DNA of 46,429 nt, from positions 1 through 46,429 of IMG/VR virus record IMGVR_UViG_3300032116_000361. One strand, 5' to 3'. The stretch's first letter is position 1; each line of letters begins with the position of its first letter. A program made the position numbers and the translations under genes. The DNA comes from a virus. Positions 2,648 to 24,500 of this stretch are shown here, piece by piece. The notes under the pieces are model-generated. The model did no database searches, was not told the DNA's origin, and saw only the letters and a program-made list of their open reading frames with translations.

Positions 2648-2899
2648 ATGACCAACCGCGAGCGGGAGGAGTTCCGTCAGCAGGCCATTGCCAATGCAAT
2701 GGCTCAACTGCTGCCCAACACCAACTTCCAGCAGTTTATCAACGTGCTGCGTGAACAGCGGGAGGTCGTCATCGAGGACATCTGTCGTGACGATAGCATC
2801 AAGAGCGAGCGGGCAACAATGGCCCTCGTTGGCGAGCTGCGTGCCCTGAAGGGCGTCATCGCTGTGTACGACGAGTACAAGCGTAGGGAACAGATTTGA
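2648..2899 (+). CDS. Small conserved-type protein between portal and scaffold, 83 residues
   Basis: The ATG follows the portal stop directly (TAAATG), with AGGAG at 2638-2642, one of the few good ribosome binding sites in this half of the window. The product is helical and charged (MTNREREEFRQQAIANAM..., ending DEYKRREQI) with no cysteine pair or membrane segment. Genes of this size and composition between portal and scaffold are frequent in phages, but I recognise no function. Head assembly accessory is an inference from position only. Confidence 0.7.
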   Translation: MTNREREEFRQQAIANAMAQLLPNTNFQQFINVLREQREVVIEDICRDDSIKSERATMALVGELRALKGVIAVYDEYKRREQI

Positions 2900-2910
2900 C
2901 CGTTGACTTA

Positions 2911-2944
2911 ATCCGGTGACATGCACAGCTCATGTTTACCGGAT
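2911..2944 (+). promoter_or_regulatory. Strong hairpin between portal block and scaffold gene
   Basis: ATCCGGT (2911-2917) pairs with ACCGGAT (2938-2944). Inside this, ACATG pairs with CATGT across a one-base bulge, leaving a 7-base loop. No T-tract follows, so it is a poor intrinsic terminator. It could be an mRNA processing or stability element at the head of the scaffold leader. The 171-base region 2900-3070 has no gene and holds only this hairpin and the repeat array that follows. Confidence 0.5.
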
Positions 2945-2961
2945 GATCCTCATTCGGACTT

Positions 2962-3126
2962 GGCGGCTTCACCGGCCACAAATGGTGATGATGTTAGTTG
3001 GTTAGGTGGCGGCTTCACCGGCCCTGATTGGTGATGATCTGTTAGGGACGGGCGGCTTCACCGGCCATGATTGGTGATGAGTAATACTACAGAAGCGGCT
3101 TCACCGGCTTCCAATACTGGTGATGG
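2962..3126 (+). repeat. Tandem 43-46 bp repeat carrying start codons, at the scaffold gene start
   Basis: Four copies of GGCGGCTTCACCGGCC...ATTGGTGATGA begin at about 2962, 3008, 3051 and 3094. The corresponding ATG codons are at 2991, 3034, 3077 and 3123. In every copy TCACC can pair with GGTGA in front of or over the ATG. The first two copies open only very short frames (ATG-TTA-GTT-GGT-TAG and ATG-ATC-TGT-TAG), the third provides the scaffold start, and the fourth lies inside the scaffold coding sequence. The spacers between copies 1, 2 and 3 share GTTAG. A role in controlling scaffold translation is an inference. Confidence 0.8.
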
Positions 3127-4219
3127 AGAAAAGTCGGGCAACGTATCATTGACGCAGGCGGCGGCGATGCTCTTTGCGAACGCGCAAAAGGCGGAGTCGA
3201 AACCGGCGCCAACCCCTCCCGCGGAGGGCGCTGCCACGGAAGAGCCCAGTGCTCCCGAAGCGACAGAACAACCCGCGGAAACAGCAGAGACCGCACCCGA
3301 ATCCTCCCAACCCGAGGCTGCCACGGAAGGGGAAGAAACCCCACAACCCGAGGCGGAACCGGAGAAGGAGGACGTTCCTTCCCAGAAAACTTCTTCGGAC
3401 AAGGAGACCCGGATCCGCGAGAAGGTCCAGAAGCGCGTCGATGAGGAGGTGGCAAAGCGCAAGGCGTTGGAGGAGAGGCTCGCCAACTTGGAAGCCAGCC
3501 TGAAAAAGGCGGAGACCGAGAAGACGAACCCCCCGCCCCCGATGCCCAAGGGCACCCTGCCCTTGGCGGAGTACACCGACCTCCCTTCCCTGCAGAAGTA
3601 TCAGGAGCAGGCGAAGCAAGCGGCGCGCTGGGCAGAGGACCAGCTGGCCCGAGACGACATCGGCGAAGGTGTCACGGTGGGGGATCAAACCCTGACCCGT
3701 GAACAAGTTCGTGACGTGTTGCGGAAGGCCAAGATCGCGATCGAGGATCACATCCCGGCGAGGCAGAACTTTCTCCTCACCAAGGCGCAGGCATCTCAAC
3801 AAGCCGTTCAGATGTTCCCGTTCCTGAAGGATCCCAACTCGGAGGACTACCAAGCCGCTGTCCAAGCCTACCGGCTCAACCCGTGGCTTCAGGATCTCCC
3901 CAACGCTGACTTCATCGTCGGTGTGCAGGTGGAGGGGCTGAAGGCACTCAAGGCCCGTCAGGCCGCAGCAGCCAAGTCTTCCAAGGCCACGGACGCTCCC
4001 GCACCGAAACCGAAGCCCAAGATCACCCCGACGGCCAAGCCATCGGGCGATCAGACCGCGGTGTCATCCGGCACCTCGACCCCACGCATCCCGTCCGCCT
4101 CGGTGGCACGCAATGCGTTGGACGCGCAACGGGAGAAGTTAAGACAGAAGGGCGCCGTGACGGCCGGTGAGGCCGCGGCACTACTGCTGCGTAGCGACCA
4201 ACTTCGTACCAATCGTTAA
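3077..4219 (+). CDS. Scaffolding protein (probable)
   Basis: A 380-residue protein between portal and major capsid, the usual place of the scaffold that templates capsid assembly. The first ~100 residues are low-complexity Ala/Pro/Glu, residues ~110-150 are a charged coiled coil (TRIREKVQKRVDEEVAKRK), residues ~190-300 are a helical folded part, and the C-terminal ~80 residues are again Pro/Ser/Lys-rich. The ATG at 3077 is preferred over in-frame GTG 3074 and TTG 3071 because it is the ATG of the third repeat unit. No serine protease triad is evident, so a fused maturation protease is unlikely. Call is by position and composition; no sequence family is recognised. Confidence 0.6.
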   Translation: MSNTTEAASPASNTGDGEKSGNVSLTQAAAMLFANAQKAESKPAPTPPAEGAATEEPSAPEATEQPAETAETAPESSQPEAATEGEETPQPEAEPEKEDVPSQKTSSDKETRIREKVQKRVDEEVAKRKALEERLANLEASLKKAETEKTNPPPPMPKGTLPLAEYTDLPSLQKYQEQAKQAARWAEDQLARDDIGEGVTVGDQTLTREQVRDVLRKAKIAIEDHIPARQNFLLTKAQASQQAVQMFPFLKDPNSEDYQAAVQAYRLNPWLQDLPNADFIVGVQVEGLKALKARQAAAAKSSKATDAPAPKPKPKITPTAKPSGDQTAVSSGTSTPRIPSASVARNALDAQREKLRQKGAVTAGEAAALLLRSDQLRTNR

Positions 4220-4224
4220 CTACC

Positions 4225-5232
4225 ATGGCTCAATCCACTACCTACAATGTTGCGGGGGATCGTGAAGATCTCACCAACTTCCTCACCATCCTCGAACCCG
4301 AGGATTGCCCGAAAACGTCTACCTTCGCCAAGACGACGAAGGTGACCAATGCCCTCCAGACTTGGCAGGCCGACACCCTCGCGGCTGTTGACTTCTCCGG
4401 TGTGCTGGAAGGTCAGGACGTTCAGGCGTTCAACAACGAGTCCGCCAACCGTGCGCGATTCGGCAACTACATCCAGACCTTCCGCCGCCCGTGGATGGTC
4501 TCCCGTCTGCAGGAGGCCAGCGATCCCGCCGGCATCTCCTCGGAAGTCGCCCAGTCGAAGGTCAAGGCGATGCGCGAGATCAAGCGCAGCATCGAGGCGG
4601 CCATCGGCTCCGACAACGACATGCAGGCCGACAACGGCGTCGTGCCGTGGAAGACCCGCGGTCTCGGCAGCTGGATCCGCGCCACGGCGCAGAGCACCAA
4701 CCCGGTGCCCACGGCGTTCCTCACGCCGTCCGCCAGCATCGACACCACGGCGACCGGCTCCCTCACGGAGTCGATCTTCAACGACGTGTTCCAGTCGATC
4801 TTCCAAGTGAACGGCGGTCGCCGCAACTACACGCTCTTCGCCGGTCCGTCCCTCAAGCGGGCGGTCTCGAAGTTCCAGCGTGTTGAAGGCGCCTCCGGCA
4901 CCACCAAGACCTATCAGGTCATGCAGGATGCCAACGAGGGCAAGGTCACCCTGAACGTGACGATCTATGATGGCGACTTCCACACGGTCACCGTCATCCC
5001 CGACATGTTCAACGGCCTGCTCGACGGCGCTGACCCCTCGGTCACCACCAACCAGCAGAAGGCCCGTGGCTACGTGATCGACCCCGCGCTCGTGGGGCTC
5101 GGCACCATGCTCGGCATGCAGGCCGACGAGCTGGAAGATCAGGGTGGCGGTCGTCGTGGCTTTGTCTCCACCTCGCTGCTGCTCGTCTGCAAGAACCCGA
5201 AGGGTCTCGGCAAGTTTGCCGCGACGAGCTAA
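4225..5232 (+). CDS. Major capsid protein, DUF5309/SU10-like
   Basis: A 335-residue protein. The opening (TYNVAGDREDLTNFLTILEPEDCPKTS...), the WQADTLAAVD motif and the RFGNYIQTFRRPWMVS segment are those of the DUF5309 group of HK97-fold capsid proteins, represented by phage SU10. It builds the icosahedral shell. The start ATG is six bases after the scaffold stop in the context ACTACCATGG with no Shine-Dalgarno sequence, which is surprising for what should be the most abundant phage protein. Codon use is strongly biased to GC-ending codons, as expected for a highly expressed gene. Identification is from recalled family motifs. Confidence 0.85.
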   Translation: MAQSTTYNVAGDREDLTNFLTILEPEDCPKTSTFAKTTKVTNALQTWQADTLAAVDFSGVLEGQDVQAFNNESANRARFGNYIQTFRRPWMVSRLQEASDPAGISSEVAQSKVKAMREIKRSIEAAIGSDNDMQADNGVVPWKTRGLGSWIRATAQSTNPVPTAFLTPSASIDTTATGSLTESIFNDVFQSIFQVNGGRRNYTLFAGPSLKRAVSKFQRVEGASGTTKTYQVMQDANEGKVTLNVTIYDGDFHTVTVIPDMFNGLLDGADPSVTTNQQKARGYVIDPALVGLGTMLGMQADELEDQGGGRRGFVSTSLLLVCKNPKGLGKFAATS

Positions 5233-17258: not shown

Positions 17259-17897
17259 ATGGCCAACGTCACTCCCGGCTACACCTTCACGGGCACCACG
17301 GACCCGATCACGTTCGTCAAGCTGAACCTGATCGCGCAGCCCACCGTCGTTATTGGGAACGACGAAGTGACGTCAGCCATGATCGCCTCCGGCGTTACGC
17401 TGGAGAATGTCACGGTGGACGCGGGGCTTACCGTGGCGACGGGTGGGGCAACCATTACGGCTGGCGGTCTTACCGTGACGGCAGGTGGTGCTACGGTGAC
17501 GGCGGGCGGGCTTACCGTGACGGCAGGTGGTGCTACGGTGACGGCGGGTGGCCTGACTCTGGGCGCCAGTACCCCGATCAACATGGCGTCTTCTACCGAG
17601 ACGTTTGGGGGAACTATCGCCCTGACGTTCAGCGCGACCAAGGGGAACACGCGGCGCATCGCCTGCACGAGCAACACCGCCTCGACGATCAATGCGGCAT
17701 CGGTTCCGGCCGCCGGTTACCTCCTGATCATCAGTTTTACGACTGATGGCACGGGTGGTAACGTGATCACGTTCGGCACGAACTTCAAGAGCACCGGCAC
17801 GTACACGTTGGCCACGGCCAATAAGTACTACTCCGCGGTGTTCGTCTCTGATGGCACGTCCTTGGTCGAACTCAGCCGTACCGCCGCCGCGGGTTAA
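17259..17897 (+). CDS. Repeat-containing beta-helix-like virion protein, 212 residues
   Basis: N-terminus YTFTGTTDPITFVKLNLIAQPTVVIGNDEVTSAMI is of the kind found at the start of tail fibre and collar proteins. Residues ~55-105 contain a repeat (GGLTVTAGGATVTA) of 14 residues, compatible with a beta-helical shaft. The C-terminal ~100 residues (GTIALTFSATKGNTRRIACTSNTASTI... and YSAVFVSDGTSLVELSRT) resemble a phage tail beta domain. Start is CGACTACCATGG with no Shine-Dalgarno sequence. A short fibre or whisker is my best guess. Confidence 0.6.
   Translation: MANVTPGYTFTGTTDPITFVKLNLIAQPTVVIGNDEVTSAMIASGVTLENVTVDAGLTVATGGATITAGGLTVTAGGATVTAGGLTVTAGGATVTAGGLTLGASTPINMASSTETFGGTIALTFSATKGNTRRIACTSNTASTINAASVPAAGYLLIISFTTDGTGGNVITFGTNFKSTGTYTLATANKYYSAVFVSDGTSLVELSRTAAAG
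17426..17565 (+). repeat. 42-bp in-frame tandem repeat
   Basis: A 42-base unit (encoding GGLTVTAGGATVTA) is repeated; CTTACCGTGACGGCAGGTGG begins at 17469 and again at 17511, with degenerate half-units on both sides. The two central units are nearly identical at DNA level. Confidence 0.8.
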
Positions 17898-17899
17898 CG

Positions 17900-20296
17900 A
17901 TGCCCGAACAAACATCATCGCTTACCCCAGCCAACTCCTCGCCGGTGGTTCTTCCACCGTTCACGGTGTCAAGTCGGGAACCGGATATTTTTTGGGGGTT
18001 TAACCCGGACGATGAGGATGCTGGGTTGTATCGTCCTGAAGGCGCAGGGGAGTCCGGGTTCTACATCACCCCCAACCTGTTCACATCGCCGGTTACCCGG
18101 CCGACGCCGACAGCCATTTCACCGATAACCCCGACAGCTGATGCGGTCGGGACACCTCAAACCACAACTACCCCAAATACGCGCACCCCCACATGGGATG
18201 AGCTAAAAGAGATCCTGCTTACCCCAGAGGGGCGCGATCAGGAAATCCAACGTCGGATCCAAAAGGCGGGGGGATATGGGAACCTCCCGGACTCTCAGGT
18301 TCAGTCGATCGTCAATTCGGTCTATGAAGACCTTAACGATGTGCAGCGTACGGCTGCCGGCGTTGCTGCTCGCAATTCCGCCGGCCAAGGTGGTCCGCCT
18401 TTGGTCCTCCCTTTGCCGATCGATCCGACCGCCGCAATCCTTGGCACCCTGATCCTAAACCGAGGTAATCTGGAGAACATCTTTGGTGGTGGGATACCTA
18501 ACCCCGTTCAAGTGGGGCAAAACGTAGGGGGGATTATCACCAATCCGGTGGGTGCAGTAGTCGAGACTGGGAAGAACCTCGGCGAAGATATCGCCAACTT
18601 GAATATCGGAGGTGGCAACTCTATTGGTGGCGGTGCGCCTTCCAGCAGTTCGGGCGGTGCAGCTACTGGCGGCGGTGCAGCTACTGGCGGCGGTGCAGCT
18701 ACTGGCGGCGGTGCAGCTACTGGCGGCGGTGCAGCTACTGGCGGCGGTGCAGCTACTGGTGGTGCAGCTACTGGTGGGGGCCAGCAACCTCCTAGGCGAT
18801 TAGATCAGACCTCGTTGCCCCCCGGGACTAAGTCTCCTGACGGCACCTTAGAGGTTTCACCGACAGGCGTGTGGGAATACCCCACCAATATTTACGGGAC
18901 TCCAGTCAACCCCAACGACCCGTTGAATCAGCGAGCTGGGTATGGGACGAGTTTACCGCCGGGAACCCGGTCTGCTGATGGCCGCCTAGTCGTCACCTCA
19001 AACGGGGTCTGGGTGGAGGATGTCGCTCCTTCAACCTCCTCGCCCAGAATAAACTTCCCCGAAGGCTCCGAGATGCGGATGCCTGACGGGTCGATAGTCG
19101 TCATGACCGCCGGGGTTTGGCGCCCCAAAGGGCAAGTTCCTTCCGGCACGATCACTCCGGGTACGGGAGTTGGGGCGCCGAGTACTAACACCGGATCCCC
19201 GGATGGGAGTACTCGGACACCGGGCGGAGCAGTCCTTGTTGGCACAGGTACAAATACCTCTACCACCGGGTCTGGCCGGGCGCCGTCTTCCGGCGAAAAC
19301 CCTCAACCCGGCACCGGCGTAGTCCTTGTCGGTACTGGAGGTGGCTCCAACACGGGCGGAGGTAGCACGACGGGTGGAGGTAGCACGACGGGTGGAGGTA
19401 GCACGACGGGTGGAGGTAGCACGACGGGCGGTGGCAGCTCCACTGGCGGCACCGGCGGTGAATCAACTACAACCCCCGGCGGCACTGTCCTTGTCCCTGT
19501 TGGCGGGGGCGGAGGTGGCGGCGGTTCAACTTCAACAGGCACTAACGTGAGCACTGCATTGACTGGCACTTACAACTTCACTGTCCCGACTCCGAATCAG
19601 CTGATCATGCGGGACTTCTACAAGGAGGGCAGCACCTCCACGCAGGCGTTGCAGGGGCTGCAGCCCTCGCTGGTAAAGATGTACTCGGAACTGTACAACG
19701 CGTTTGCCCCGACGTCGTTGACTGGGCCGGTGGGTACGGGCTACGACCCCACCGCGACCTCCCGCCTGCAGCAAGATCTGGCCGCGTTGCAGGCTGCGGA
19801 ACGTCGGGAGCTTTCGGCCGAAGACATCCGTAACGCCCAGCAGGCGGCGCGTGAGGCGTACGGTGCCCGCGGTCAGGCGTTTGCCCCCGGAGCCGTGGGA
19901 GCTGAGATCCTTGGCCGTGACACCTTGGCCCGGCAGCGTGAGGCTGAGGCGCGGGCCAACTACCAGCAGTCGATGCAGAACGTGGCGAACGCGGTGCAGC
20001 TGAAGACGGGTAACCTCTTCGCCCCGATCGCCAATCTGGTACAGGGTTCGTTCAACCCGTACAGCCAGTACGCCAATCAGGTGTACGACTACAACGTCAA
20101 CGCCTACAACGAGTACCAAGCGGCCAAGGAGAACCTCGCGGCGTACAAGGAGGCGGCAGCAAAAGGTCAGGAAGCTCAGTTCTTGAACGCCTTCTCAAAC
20201 TTCCTCAGTAAGAACGGTATTCAGACCACGGCAAATGCTCTGGGCGGTATCTTCCAAGGCATCATGGATGTCTTTGGATTTAACCCCAAAGGATAA
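17900..20296 (+). CDS. Large low-complexity internal virion protein, 798 residues
   Basis: Three parts are visible. Residues 1-~240 are mixed and Pro-rich, with a conserved-looking WDELKEILLTPEGRDQEIQRRIQ helix. Residues ~240-550 are disordered and include GGAATG repeats, three copies of a DG..V...GVW motif (SPDGTLEVSPTGVW, SADGRLVVTSNGVW, MPDGSIVVMTAGVW) and GGGSTT repeats. Residues ~555-798 are helical (SRLQQDLAALQAAERREL, REAYGARGQAFAPGAVGAEILGRD, YNVNAYNEYQAAKENL). That last part resembles helical internal or tail-tip proteins of podoviruses. Position before two more helical giants suggests a DNA ejection apparatus role. Confidence 0.55.
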   Translation: MPEQTSSLTPANSSPVVLPPFTVSSREPDIFWGFNPDDEDAGLYRPEGAGESGFYITPNLFTSPVTRPTPTAISPITPTADAVGTPQTTTTPNTRTPTWDELKEILLTPEGRDQEIQRRIQKAGGYGNLPDSQVQSIVNSVYEDLNDVQRTAAGVAARNSAGQGGPPLVLPLPIDPTAAILGTLILNRGNLENIFGGGIPNPVQVGQNVGGIITNPVGAVVETGKNLGEDIANLNIGGGNSIGGGAPSSSSGGAATGGGAATGGGAATGGGAATGGGAATGGGAATGGAATGGGQQPPRRLDQTSLPPGTKSPDGTLEVSPTGVWEYPTNIYGTPVNPNDPLNQRAGYGTSLPPGTRSADGRLVVTSNGVWVEDVAPSTSSPRINFPEGSEMRMPDGSIVVMTAGVWRPKGQVPSGTITPGTGVGAPSTNTGSPDGSTRTPGGAVLVGTGTNTSTTGSGRAPSSGENPQPGTGVVLVGTGGGSNTGGGSTTGGGSTTGGGSTTGGGSTTGGGSSTGGTGGESTTTPGGTVLVPVGGGGGGGGSTSTGTNVSTALTGTYNFTVPTPNQLIMRDFYKEGSTSTQALQGLQPSLVKMYSELYNAFAPTSLTGPVGTGYDPTATSRLQQDLAALQAAERRELSAEDIRNAQQAAREAYGARGQAFAPGAVGAEILGRDTLARQREAEARANYQQSMQNVANAVQLKTGNLFAPIANLVQGSFNPYSQYANQVYDYNVNAYNEYQAAKENLAAYKEAAAKGQEAQFLNAFSNFLSKNGIQTTANALGGIFQGIMDVFGFNPKG
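18652..18778 (+). repeat. 18-bp tandem repeat encoding GGAATG
   Basis: The unit GGCGGTGCAGCTACTGGC is repeated with the core GCAGCTACTGG occurring seven times; most units are 18 bases and one is 15 bases. All changes keep the reading frame. Such arrays are prone to slippage, so copy number may vary between isolates. Confidence 0.85.
19358..19429 (+). repeat. 18-bp tandem repeat encoding GGGSTT
   Basis: Four copies of GGAGGTAGCACGACGGGT, at 19358, 19376, 19394 and 19412, with diverged units at each side (encoding GGGSNT and GGGSST). It is the second 18-bp array in the same gene, with unrelated sequence. Confidence 0.85.
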
Positions 20297-20307
20297 CTTT
20301 TTCACCT

Positions 20308-21558
20308 ATGGCCTTCGTCGCACCCAACCGAGAAGCCGGTCGCATCCTCTATCAGGGGGTGATGGATCAGGCGCGTGGCATCGCTGGCGCCGTCAACCAG
20401 TTCGTGGATGAGGGCTACAAGCGGCAGGAACAGGACAAGGAGTTCAACGCCAAGCTCAAGGTGACCGAGCAGGCGCTCTCCACGTTCATCAAGCCGAAGG
20501 CCGCGGAGTTCGGCACGACCCCCGAGGCGATCGACGCGTTCCTCAAGGTCAACCCCAGCGAGAGCCCGAAGGAACGCTACCTTCGGTTGGGCGGATTCCT
20601 TGAGCAGGCGATCACGTCGTCGAAGATGACGCGTGATGCCCAGCAGGCCGAGACCCAGCGCAAGTACACCGACGCGCTGGCGGTCAGCGCGATGGCGCAG
20701 AAGCAGGCGACTGAAGCGGCGACGGCCGATCGTCTTCGTGAAGCCCAGCAGGCAGAGCGGTTCATCAAGGGCGTCAAGGAGCTGGAGCAGTTTGAGCAGA
20801 TGGAGCGGGACGACACTCCGTTCAGCATCGAGCAGACTAACCGTTACCAGCAGCTCAAGGGTAACGAGATGCTGAAGGCGGCGCGTCAGGCCGGCGAGCT
20901 TGGGATGGATGCTGCGAGCTTCATCAAGATGACGCAGGGTAACCGCGCCTTGGACCTTCAGCAGCAAGACATCACCAACCGCAAGACGATCGCGGACCTC
21001 AAGGCTCAGAACGACCGGCTGCAGGAGCTTATCAAGGCGGGCCAGAAGCAGCCCCCGGTTCCCCCGGGCGAGGTTACTGTCGCCGGGAAAAAGATATCGA
21101 CGGTTTGGGGAGGGCCGAGCAGAGGCTATGTGGATCCGAAGAGCGGTCTTCCGGTCAGCATCCGCATCACCAAGACCGACCCGAAAACCGGCGACCAGAG
21201 CACCTACGATGGTGGGATAAATCCGGCGCTGTACGACTATTACAGCAAGGGAGGCCCCGGAGCGGACGACACTGCGGCCGTCAATACGGGGGCTGGAACT
21301 GAGGGGGCTGCAACTGAGGGGGCTGCAACTGAGGGGGCTGGAACTGAGGAGGAGCAGCCCGATCCCGCCAAGCTGACGCGGGTCAGCGGCACTGGCACGG
21401 CCAGCCGTGGGCCGATTAACACGGACTTCCTGTACCAGAACTCCCCGAAGTTCAATACCTCCGATGAGGCGATAGCCGCGGCCCGCTCTAACCCGCGCCT
21501 GATCGGGACTGTTGTGATCGTAAACGGCGTTCCGGTGCGAATCAAAGGGCCGGAGTAA
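20308..21558 (+). CDS. Helical internal virion/ejection protein, 416 residues
   Basis: Residues 1-~250 are a long, charged, Gln/Ala-rich helical region (GAVNQFVDEGYKRQEQDKEFNAKLKVTEQAL, AQKQATEAATADRLREAQQAERFIKG), as in internal core proteins that are ejected with the DNA. Residues ~330-345 carry an acidic Gly/Ala/Thr/Glu repeat. The C-terminal ~50 residues (FLYQNSPKFNTSDEAIAAARSNPRLIGTVVIVNGVPVRIKG) look like a small folded domain. Start context is TTTTTCACCTATGG; AAAGGA lies too far upstream to be a normal ribosome binding site. Confidence 0.6.
   Translation: MAFVAPNREAGRILYQGVMDQARGIAGAVNQFVDEGYKRQEQDKEFNAKLKVTEQALSTFIKPKAAEFGTTPEAIDAFLKVNPSESPKERYLRLGGFLEQAITSSKMTRDAQQAETQRKYTDALAVSAMAQKQATEAATADRLREAQQAERFIKGVKELEQFEQMERDDTPFSIEQTNRYQQLKGNEMLKAARQAGELGMDAASFIKMTQGNRALDLQQQDITNRKTIADLKAQNDRLQELIKAGQKQPPVPPGEVTVAGKKISTVWGGPSRGYVDPKSGLPVSIRITKTDPKTGDQSTYDGGINPALYDYYSKGGPGADDTAAVNTGAGTEGAATEGAATEGAGTEEEQPDPAKLTRVSGTGTASRGPINTDFLYQNSPKFNTSDEAIAAARSNPRLIGTVVIVNGVPVRIKGPE
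21288..21347 (+). repeat. 15-bp tandem repeat encoding EGA(A/G)T
   Basis: Four units of GGGGGCTG(C/G)AACTGA begin at 21288, 21303, 21318 and 21333. The outer copies have G and the inner ones C at the variable base. The product is an acidic flexible linker. Confidence 0.85.
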
Positions 21559-21567
21559 CTCCCTTAC

Positions 21568-24500
21568 ATGGCTCAACCCATCAAGATCACCCTAGAGCCG
21601 TTGACCGAGCAAGGGGGCGAGAAGCCCTTGTTCACCCCTCCGGCGGGGATCACCCCGGAGCAGGCGGCGGCGCAGGAGTTTGAGTCCATTGTCGGACAGG
21701 CGATGGAGTTGCCGGAAGGCTTCCAGCCCCCGGAGGTTGGGCCGTACACGGACATCGAGGCAACCAAGTCCAACATTCCCATCACGCTGGAGCCGGTGGT
21801 GTATGAGTCCACCGAGCCGGGGATGTACGAACGTGTTCTTGGGAAGTTCCTGCCGGACAAGACGCAGGCGGCACTGGCCCAAGGGGTGGAAGCCGCGGGG
21901 GAAAAGTACGTCAAGCCCGCCTACGACTGGCTCACCACCTCGCCGAAGTTCGTCCGGGACGCAGTCAAGGCGCAGGAGAAGAAGATCGACGACATACTGG
22001 CAAGGCCCCCGGCTCCCGCCGAGGAGGACGTCGTGGTGGATCCGATGCTCGGCATCACGCGGTCTCAGGCCCTGCCGAGCGAGCTGAGTGGTGAGACGGC
22101 CAAGCTGGTTGCGCTCAAAGTCGGTGAGGCGGTCAGCTCCCCCATCGACATGGCGTCGGTGGCGATGGGCGGCGTCGGCCCTGCGGTTACGGCGGCGAGA
22201 AGGATGGGGAAAGTCTCCGCGGCGTTGGAGAAAACCGTCCGAGGCGTTGATCTTGGCGTCCAAGCCACCGCGGCGACACCGGCGGTGGTGGAGGCGGTCA
22301 AGGCCATCAACGAGGCGGTGGCGGATCCCACGGCGGGCAACATCGCTGGCGCTACGGCCAGCACGTTCTTGGCCGCGTTTGCCGGGCCTGCTGTGGTCGA
22401 TGCCTTCCGAGCGGCGGGCACGCGGATCTCTGATCGAGATTACGTAGTTTCAGACGCGCAGTGGGAGGCGGCCCAGAACCGGATGAGGGCCGCGCAGATG
22501 ACCGACGAGCAGTACTCCGCAGTGATGCGGCGTCCCCTCGCGTTGCCGGAAGGGCTGCCCCAGATCGACACTGCTCGAACCCCCGCAGGGGAGTTCATCC
22601 GCACGGTCATCCCTTCGGATGGGGCCGTGGCCCCTCGCCCTCAACCGGCGTTGCCGGAGTTTCGGGCTCCGATGGAGGAGCCATCAATCGCCACGTTCCT
22701 GCCGTCAGGAGAGACGGTGCTCGCCCGTCCGCCGCTGGAGCTACCGGAGTTCCGGGCTCCGGTCGAGGAGCTGTCGATGCCGACGTCCATCCCGTCGGGA
22801 GAGACGATCCAGCTACCCGGTCCCCGGGTGGATCGGATCATGGCCGCCTTCAGCGAGGATGGCATCAAGCTGAGCCGGGAACAGGCCACGCAGCTGGCGA
22901 ACATCACCAGTCCCCTCGAATACTCGCTCGCGCGTCAGGCCATCCTTGATACGGTTCTGCCCCTGCCGGAGAACGTCCCGGCGGCGCGTGAGCTGCGGAA
23001 GGCCACGTCGCTCAAGGGCTTTGAAGAGATGATTCCGGTCGCCGCGAAGAAGGCGGCCCCAGCAGCCGAAGTGCCAGTGCTGGAGAAGGCTGCCCCCGCG
23101 CCCGAGCCGTTGGTTCCCCTTCCGGTCAGCCCGCGACGGATCGAACTGGAACCACTCATCTACGATTCAGGTTTGGTGGATGAAGTGGGCAACCCGGTGT
23201 TCGTCAACGAGGCGGGTGCCCCGGTTGACCCGCGCAAGTACCAAGATCCCCGCGAGGTTGTTCGTACCCCGCAGGAGCAGGTACTCTACGAGCAGCAGCT
23301 TACCCGGCTCGTGGAGTTGGACCGCAAGTCCAAGGCACTGGAGACGGTGCAGCAACTGCCCGAGAACGCTTCGGTTACCGTGCGTCTGCCCGAGGCAGAG
23401 GCTCCGGTGCCAGCCACATTCCTTGGCCGGGTGCCGGACAGTGCCGGTTTCTCCCGCGTGGCCACCAGCGAGGGCGAGATGGTGGTGCCCAATGTGGACA
23501 TCGTGGCAGCGCCCCAAGCTGCAGTGGCTCCGGTGCAGCCCATCGTCACCAAGGTCAAGGATCCAACCGTTGGTGGTTGGGATGTCCAGCTTGGGCCCAA
23601 CAAGTACCGTATCTTCCGTGACCCAGAGGATCGCTGGTGGTACTTGGACGCGGTCGGCCATTACTCCGGCCGGGTGCTGTCGGTCCGGGACAAGGCTGAT
23701 GCGATCAAGAACCTGATCGAGAACGAAGCCCGCTGGATCAAGCAGATCGAACAGGAAAACCTCATCATCGCGCAGACCCGGGCGAGAGCGGTGGAGGCGA
23801 AGGCTGCTCCGGCAAAGGCTGCTCCGGCAAAGGCTGCTCCGGCAAAGGCTGCCCCGGCAAAGGCCGCGGCAAAAGCTACCGTTCCGGCTGCCCCGTTGGT
23901 GCCTGCCCCGGCTGAGGTGTTGAAGCCCGGCTTGGATACCAAGATGGCGGAGGTCGAGGTGGCGCTGTCGGTGGTGCCGTCCACGAAGTCTGTCGGCAAA
24001 ATGCCGGGTCTGGATAAGCTGAACAAGGAGTCGCAGACCGACCCCACCGCCGCGCGCCTGCTCAGCGACATCACCGCTGACACGCTCCGGTTCCTGTTTC
24101 AGGATGTCCCCACCGTCAAGGTGGATTACATCCCGGCGATCGGGTTGTATGGTGGTGGGCTGGAGGGCAGCCTCCGGGTGCGGATGACCTTCAACGAGGC
24201 CGACCGGGCCAAAGTGCTCACCCGTCTGTCGCGCTTTGCGAAGAACTTCGATCAGGAGCAGATCCACATGCGGTTGGTCTTGCCCGAGGACAGCCTCGTC
24301 GGCCAGAGCTATGGCGATGGTTCGTACAATACGTTCTCGTACACGTGGAAAGCCAAGGGACTGGAACGCTCCAAGATCGAACAGCTGGCCAAGGAATCCG
24401 GGCTGTACGGGTTTACCGTCTCAAACGACCAACTCTTAGCCTATTACGTAGGAGATCCGAATGACCTCAAAGCCATCACCCAGTTCAAAAAGTCCGGCCA

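Follow-up and report, generated by a model that had tools for sequence, protein, structure and literature searches.

Genes and repeat array at the scaffold locus

The window, that is, the whole 46,429-nucleotide viral stretch analysed here (IMG/VR record IMGVR_UViG_3300032116_000361), carries a scaffold gene at 3077..4219 that lies after a 707-aa portal-like gene and a small gene and before the major capsid gene; the genes and leader features described at this locus are on the plus strand. The scaffold gene encodes 380 aa and was recognised by a weak match to PHROG 8865, a head scaffolding protein (E=3.5e-4), and the major capsid protein gene (4225..5232) matches PF17236 SU10_MCP (E=7e-50). 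For comparison we used about 50 family contigs from IMG/VR, found by scaffold and capsid queries. Upstream of the scaffold leader, an open reading frame of 83 aa (2648..2899) is kept in these relatives and ends at a pair of TTGAC boxes; protein family searches returned no family match for it, and since it precedes the leader it is a candidate for a regulator.

The two TTGAC boxes (2896-2900 and 2903-2907) directly follow this gene and are a candidate -35 element of a scaffold/capsid promoter, and 35 of 38 distinct leaders have a TTGAC in the 200 nt that precede the scaffold start. No -10 box is conserved among the leaders, a sigma-70 scan of the window found none, and the same scan for promoters and terminators gave nothing useful. 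A palindrome follows at 2911..2944 (CCGGTGACATG(CACAGCT)CATGTTTACCGG) and is folded in both the MFE and the centroid structure, and many relatives have a palindrome of other sequence at a similar place after TTGAC. This succession of a TTGAC box and a palindrome of changing sequence (2896-2944 in the window; also, for example, in L035, L037 and L024) recurs without a clear -10 in nearly all relatives, and is possibly an unusual late promoter or operator. In the distant relative L005 (4560-4660), TTGACA and the scaffold leader are immediately preceded by a terminator-like hairpin with a T run, in keeping with transcription starting anew at this point.

Downstream of the palindrome, GCGGCTTCACCGGC..TGGTGATG occurs in four copies (at 2963, 3009, 3052 and 3095), the array copies spanning 2962..2991, 3008..3037, 3051..3080 and 3094..3123. 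Every copy reads TCACC..GGTGA and then TG, so that an ATG overlaps the 3' arm (at 2988, 3034, 3077 and 3123) and the A closing each hairpin is the A of that ATG. The composite pattern has four matches against 0.00 expected in dinucleotide shuffles, and the 14-mer of the repeat has no further occurrence in the whole 46 kb record. The four-copy repeat with its TCACC/GGTGA pairing and ATG, described earlier in a sequence-only reading of this DNA, was thus located in full and lies far beyond chance; that reading also had the right spacings but the wrong order (43, 43, 46), the actual succession being 46, 43, 43.

Copies 1 to 3 lie in the scaffold leader and copy 4 is coding. Copy 1 pairs TCACC at 2969-2973 with GGTGA at 2984-2988 and ends on a decoy ATG at 2988, with GATGTTAG next; copy 2 pairs 3015-3019 with 3030-3034 and ends on a decoy ATG at 3034. 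In copy 3 (3058-3062 with 3073-3077) the hairpin takes its final base from the scaffold start codon, whose A it is, and the 5-bp stem ending on this AUG has p=0.003 against shuffles. Copy 4 lies within the scaffold coding sequence and encodes AASPASNTGD, a conserved AASPA..GD segment. The earlier assignment of copy 3 to the scaffold start and of copy 4 to the coding sequence therefore holds, as do its mini-frames of seven and three codons, which correspond to MVMMLVG*, whose ATG stands 6 nt upstream of the one in the copy-1 hairpin, and to MIC* at copy 2. Relative to the other contigs, in-frame 3-nt indels are found only downstream of ATG 3077 and other indels upstream of it, which supports this ATG as the start in the window lineage. 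Further tandem repeats, with units of 15-42 bases that are mostly multiples of three, lie at 17424-17551, 18653-18776, 19352-19438, 21288-21349 and 23796-23873 of the window and are probably repetitive protein segments.

Distribution and nucleotide-level conservation of the array

Among the IMG/VR contigs, arrays are confined to one capsid-protein clade of 14 contigs (support 96/91). Three leader copies and one coding copy are present in the window, L001-L003, L015 and L016; two leader copies and one coding copy in L017, L018, L020, L021 and L025; and one of each in L022-L024. A pattern scan of all IMG/VR contigs returned multi-copy matches in family contigs only and no array in viral contigs outside the family, and in bacterial genomes we found neither a repeat match nor a capsid relative. 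Portal and capsid matches to cultured phages are all below 40% identity, and phage C75C1 has no such array.

The sequence-only reading had proposed aligning the leaders of related phages, and held that relatives with the same scaffold gene but no repeats, or repeats arising as slippage in a single isolate, would speak against it. Within the clade, repeat number varies (3, 2 or 1 leader copies) and the copies are kept, and an array shared by 14 contigs is not a single-isolate event. Relatives outside the clade, however, do have the scaffold gene and lack the array, which is the first of these two counter-cases; the wider group can thus express its scaffold without an array. The array is accordingly not a slip in one isolate, nor does it generally accompany the scaffold gene. 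Outside the clade only the coding copy is kept, in many relatives as SPx..GD encoded with TTCACC..GGTGATG; copy 4 is orthologous to this coding sequence, and the leader copies are the extra ones. Because these relatives keep the coding copy only, copy 4 is most simply the old one, with the leader copies added, and is likely their source.

The leader copies are kept at the nucleotide level. Between the window and L016, the leader (2855-3095) is ~7% divergent, against about 19-23% in the flanking coding DNA. A 30-mer, GGCGGCTTCACCGGCCATGATTGGTGATGA, is identical in window copy 3, copy 2 of L017 and copy 2 of L025, although four-fold degenerate sites among these three contigs differ at 0.43-0.70 (for the window and L025, 0.53 in the capsid gene and 0.70 in the scaffold gene), so that silent sites are saturated. 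Several features argue that selection acts on the nucleic acid and not on a peptide: firstly, inter-copy distances across the clade range over 39-50 and change by non-multiples of three; secondly, the hairpin spacer, or loop, is 10 or 11 nt among leader copies (in the window, TCACC(N10)GGTGA-TG); thirdly, the mini-peptides are altered or truncated, their frames and lengths differing even between close relatives. Control by an upstream reading frame or leader peptide was rejected on the last of these grounds, as frame, length and peptide all change between close relatives. A 37-aa frame at 2921-3034, which covers copy 1 and ends at copy 2, was likewise rejected as a leader peptide: the few differences in relatives alter the peptide, and a 1-nt deletion cuts the frame short in L016. 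Peptide-level selection on the leader copies was also discarded, a spacer of 11 breaking the AASPA..GD frame in L022, L024 and L025.

These data bear on whether the array is a passive remnant, in which a tandem duplication of the scaffold N-terminal segment is kept by recency and gene conversion and only the last copy matters, as the start codon. Several observations would suit such an origin: copy 4 clearly corresponds to the coding ortholog, the number of copies varies, relatives manage without an array, and in L017 the coding and leader copies share a core (copies may be homogenised by recombination). A remnant would not be expected, however, to keep its non-start leader copies about as conserved as the start copy over large divergence while the sequence between copies drifts, nor to retain the hairpin and AUGA in each of them, and we regard this explanation as unlikely.

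A hairpin at the scaffold start codon across the family

In nearly all relatives outside the clade, a small hairpin with covarying arms has its 3' foot on the A of the scaffold AUG. The scaffold start of non-repeat relatives reads CUUGNN..NNCAUG, and the arm pairs include TGTT/AACA, TGA/TCA, TGG/CCA, TGAT/ATCA, TGGTG/CACCA and TCTTA/TAAGA, the window clade having TCACC/GGTGA. The first three pairs are kept in 21/21 distinct sequences and pair types change several times on the tree, a count in which the 5' arm was placed by means of the CUUG motif and which is therefore mildly circular. Pairs were counted by script, as several rows of a MAFFT alignment of these short hairpins were out of register. 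Compensatory change was found family-wide and not inside the window clade, where the arms are invariant, so the covariation rests on the wider family.

A summed-stem test, in which no arm is chosen by eye, avoids this circularity. For stems that end on the A of the scaffold AUG, the best values sum to 73 across the 21 representatives, where dinucleotide shuffles, which do not remove relatedness, give 36.7 (sd 4.2); the 16 non-repeat representatives sum to 60 against 29.4 (sd 3.9). Capsid starts of the same contigs gave 26 against 27.6; the start-hairpin signal had a z of 7.9 at scaffold starts of the relatives outside the clade and of -0.5 at capsid starts. Many stems in the wider family have only 3-4 pairs. 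Together, these comparisons make a hairpin at the scaffold start codon a well-supported conserved feature of the related phages.

Such a hairpin lies at the start codon itself in window copy 3 and in most relatives. In L017, L022 and L025, three related lineages, the scaffold start is not the repeat ATG, and 7-10 nt separate the end of the hairpin from the true AUG downstream. Read as an extended Shine-Dalgarno sequence, the complement of the 16S tail AUCACC, GGTGAT fits these three contigs, where it stands 5-8 nt before the AUG; for ATG 3077 this role is ruled out, as the motif overlaps the AUG.

The leader copies of the clade show the same geometry, the 3' foot of the hairpin being the A of an AUG in 11/11 copies examined (z 15.3), which bears out the original claim that the repeat multiplies a translation start. 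Hairpins likewise end on the upstream AUGs of leaders from phages outside the window group (summed stem 50, shuffles 24.2 with sd 3.4; 15 AUGs, two of them from L022). Many non-repeat relatives have a second hairpin-AUG about 35-45 nt upstream of the true start, as in L037, where TGGGT(CGTTT)ACCCA-TG lies 36 nt before it. These extra hairpin-AUGs strengthen the idea of decoy start hairpins; the reading frames and peptides of the decoys are not kept. The wider group, then, already has an upstream start-like hairpin together with the true one, and the window clade has one to three copies of a different start-like hairpin: the start-codon hairpin is the general feature and the tandem array a clade-specific elaboration.

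An element acting in DNA is an alternative. TCACC(N10)GGTGA could be a protein-binding palindrome, operator- or iteron-like, beside a late promoter and without a part in translation; its arms are invariant within the clade, its position is intergenic, and a TTGAC box and other palindromes lie directly upstream. An iteron or DNA operator array should nevertheless hold a constant register and a conserved sequence, and here copy spacing drifts over 39-50 bp with no constant helical phase, while across the family the arms change with pairing kept and the hairpin end stays locked to the AUG. Capsid starts, moreover, show no hairpin signal. We consider a DNA-level role improbable.

The stacked hairpins might instead protect the scaffold-capsid message at its 5' end or serve as nuclease processing sites, with no control of the start codon. 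Several hairpins do lie in the putative 5' leader and demand for capsid message is high, but the exact placement of hairpin ends on AUGs, at true and decoy starts alike, is left unexplained by this reading, and we find it very unlikely.

Folded as had been suggested, the whole 241-nt leader is not unusually stable (z -0.97 against shuffles); what speaks for structure is therefore local and comparative evidence and not global energy. The start hairpin is thin, at about -5 kcal/mol, and competes with another local hairpin, GGCGG(CUUCA)CCGGCC, whose energy is similar or better, which may allow a two-state switch. The probability that the AUG is unpaired varies among relatives in the predictions. 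A search of Rfam returned no match above gathering score and only weak, chance-level ones at E up to 10. A 7-bp pairing of an upstream CCGGTGA with every TCACCGG was discarded, as it is not kept in L001-L003 or L016.

A putative control element for scaffold translation

Because related phages conserve a hairpin at the scaffold start codon, the repeat probably serves to control translation and did not merely arise by an accident of copying. Specifically, we propose, with about even confidence, that reiterated start-codon hairpins in a structured leader hold down or tune scaffold translation. The region would be the structured 5' leader of the scaffold-capsid message, and a transcript starting after the TTGAC boxes would carry all copies. 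With the scaffold start codon at the 3' foot of a small hairpin, initiation would be weak or controllable. In the window clade, the coding segment just past the start (TTCACC..GGTGATG, now copy 4) would have been duplicated upstream, a direction suggested by the relatives; the TCACC/GGTGA hairpin ending in AUG would then have taken over as the start hairpin, and further copies would have become decoys. Acting in RNA, the hairpins would lower or gate 30S binding, and the decoys would either capture ribosomes or share a ligand with the true start, so that scaffold output relative to capsid would be lower and tunable. Of the earlier interpretation, a translational rheostat for the ratio of scaffold to capsid, the multiplied start module and the decoy hairpins are thus supported, and the tuning itself is hypothetical.

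The arms and AUGA are invariant among the leader copies of the window clade, and for this reason we slightly favour a repressor that is encoded by the phage and binds RNA over folding that is purely passive. As the arms are invariant within the clade and free outside it, a ligand that reads sequence is a reasonable guess, for instance a virion protein or, by way of GGUGAU, the 16S tail. A more specific version, in which tandem start hairpins with the true start last are bound together by a virion protein, so that scaffold synthesis reads out free unassembled structural protein, would be a new class of phage translational operator; we offer it as a speculative and rather doubtful extension.

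In phage P22, scaffold synthesis is controlled after transcription by unassembled scaffold; P22 is not known to have tandem leader hairpins and is a candidate parallel only. Closest in mechanism are the operators of MS2 and T4. The MS2 coat-protein operator (TR stem-loop) is likewise a small hairpin in a phage message that encompasses the start codon, where coat dimers bind and block initiation (PMC11339067); the present case differs in being a double-stranded DNA tailed phage with several tandem copies, at a scaffold gene, and with no known binder. The T4 repressors RegA, gp43 and gp32 bind the message either at the AUG or immediately 5' of it, and the operator for gp43 combines a hairpin about 40 nt upstream with sequence over the ribosome site (PMC3014915). 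Whereas T4 operators are single, the start hairpin modules here are tandem and the hairpin ends on the AUG. A limited search of open-licence papers gave no account of a scaffold gene preceded by tandem hairpins at start codons.

Tailed phages have to make scaffold and capsid protein in a set ratio. The conserved, covarying hairpin at the scaffold start of this uncultivated phage group, together with the tandem decoys of one clade, offers a concrete candidate cis element for such control that is cheap to test, and natural variants with 1, 2 or 3 leader copies are ready-made comparisons. At the capsid end of this ratio, the capsid start (window 4195-4225) lies 5 nt past the scaffold stop and has no evident Shine-Dalgarno sequence and no start hairpin, and may depend on translation of the scaffold gene.
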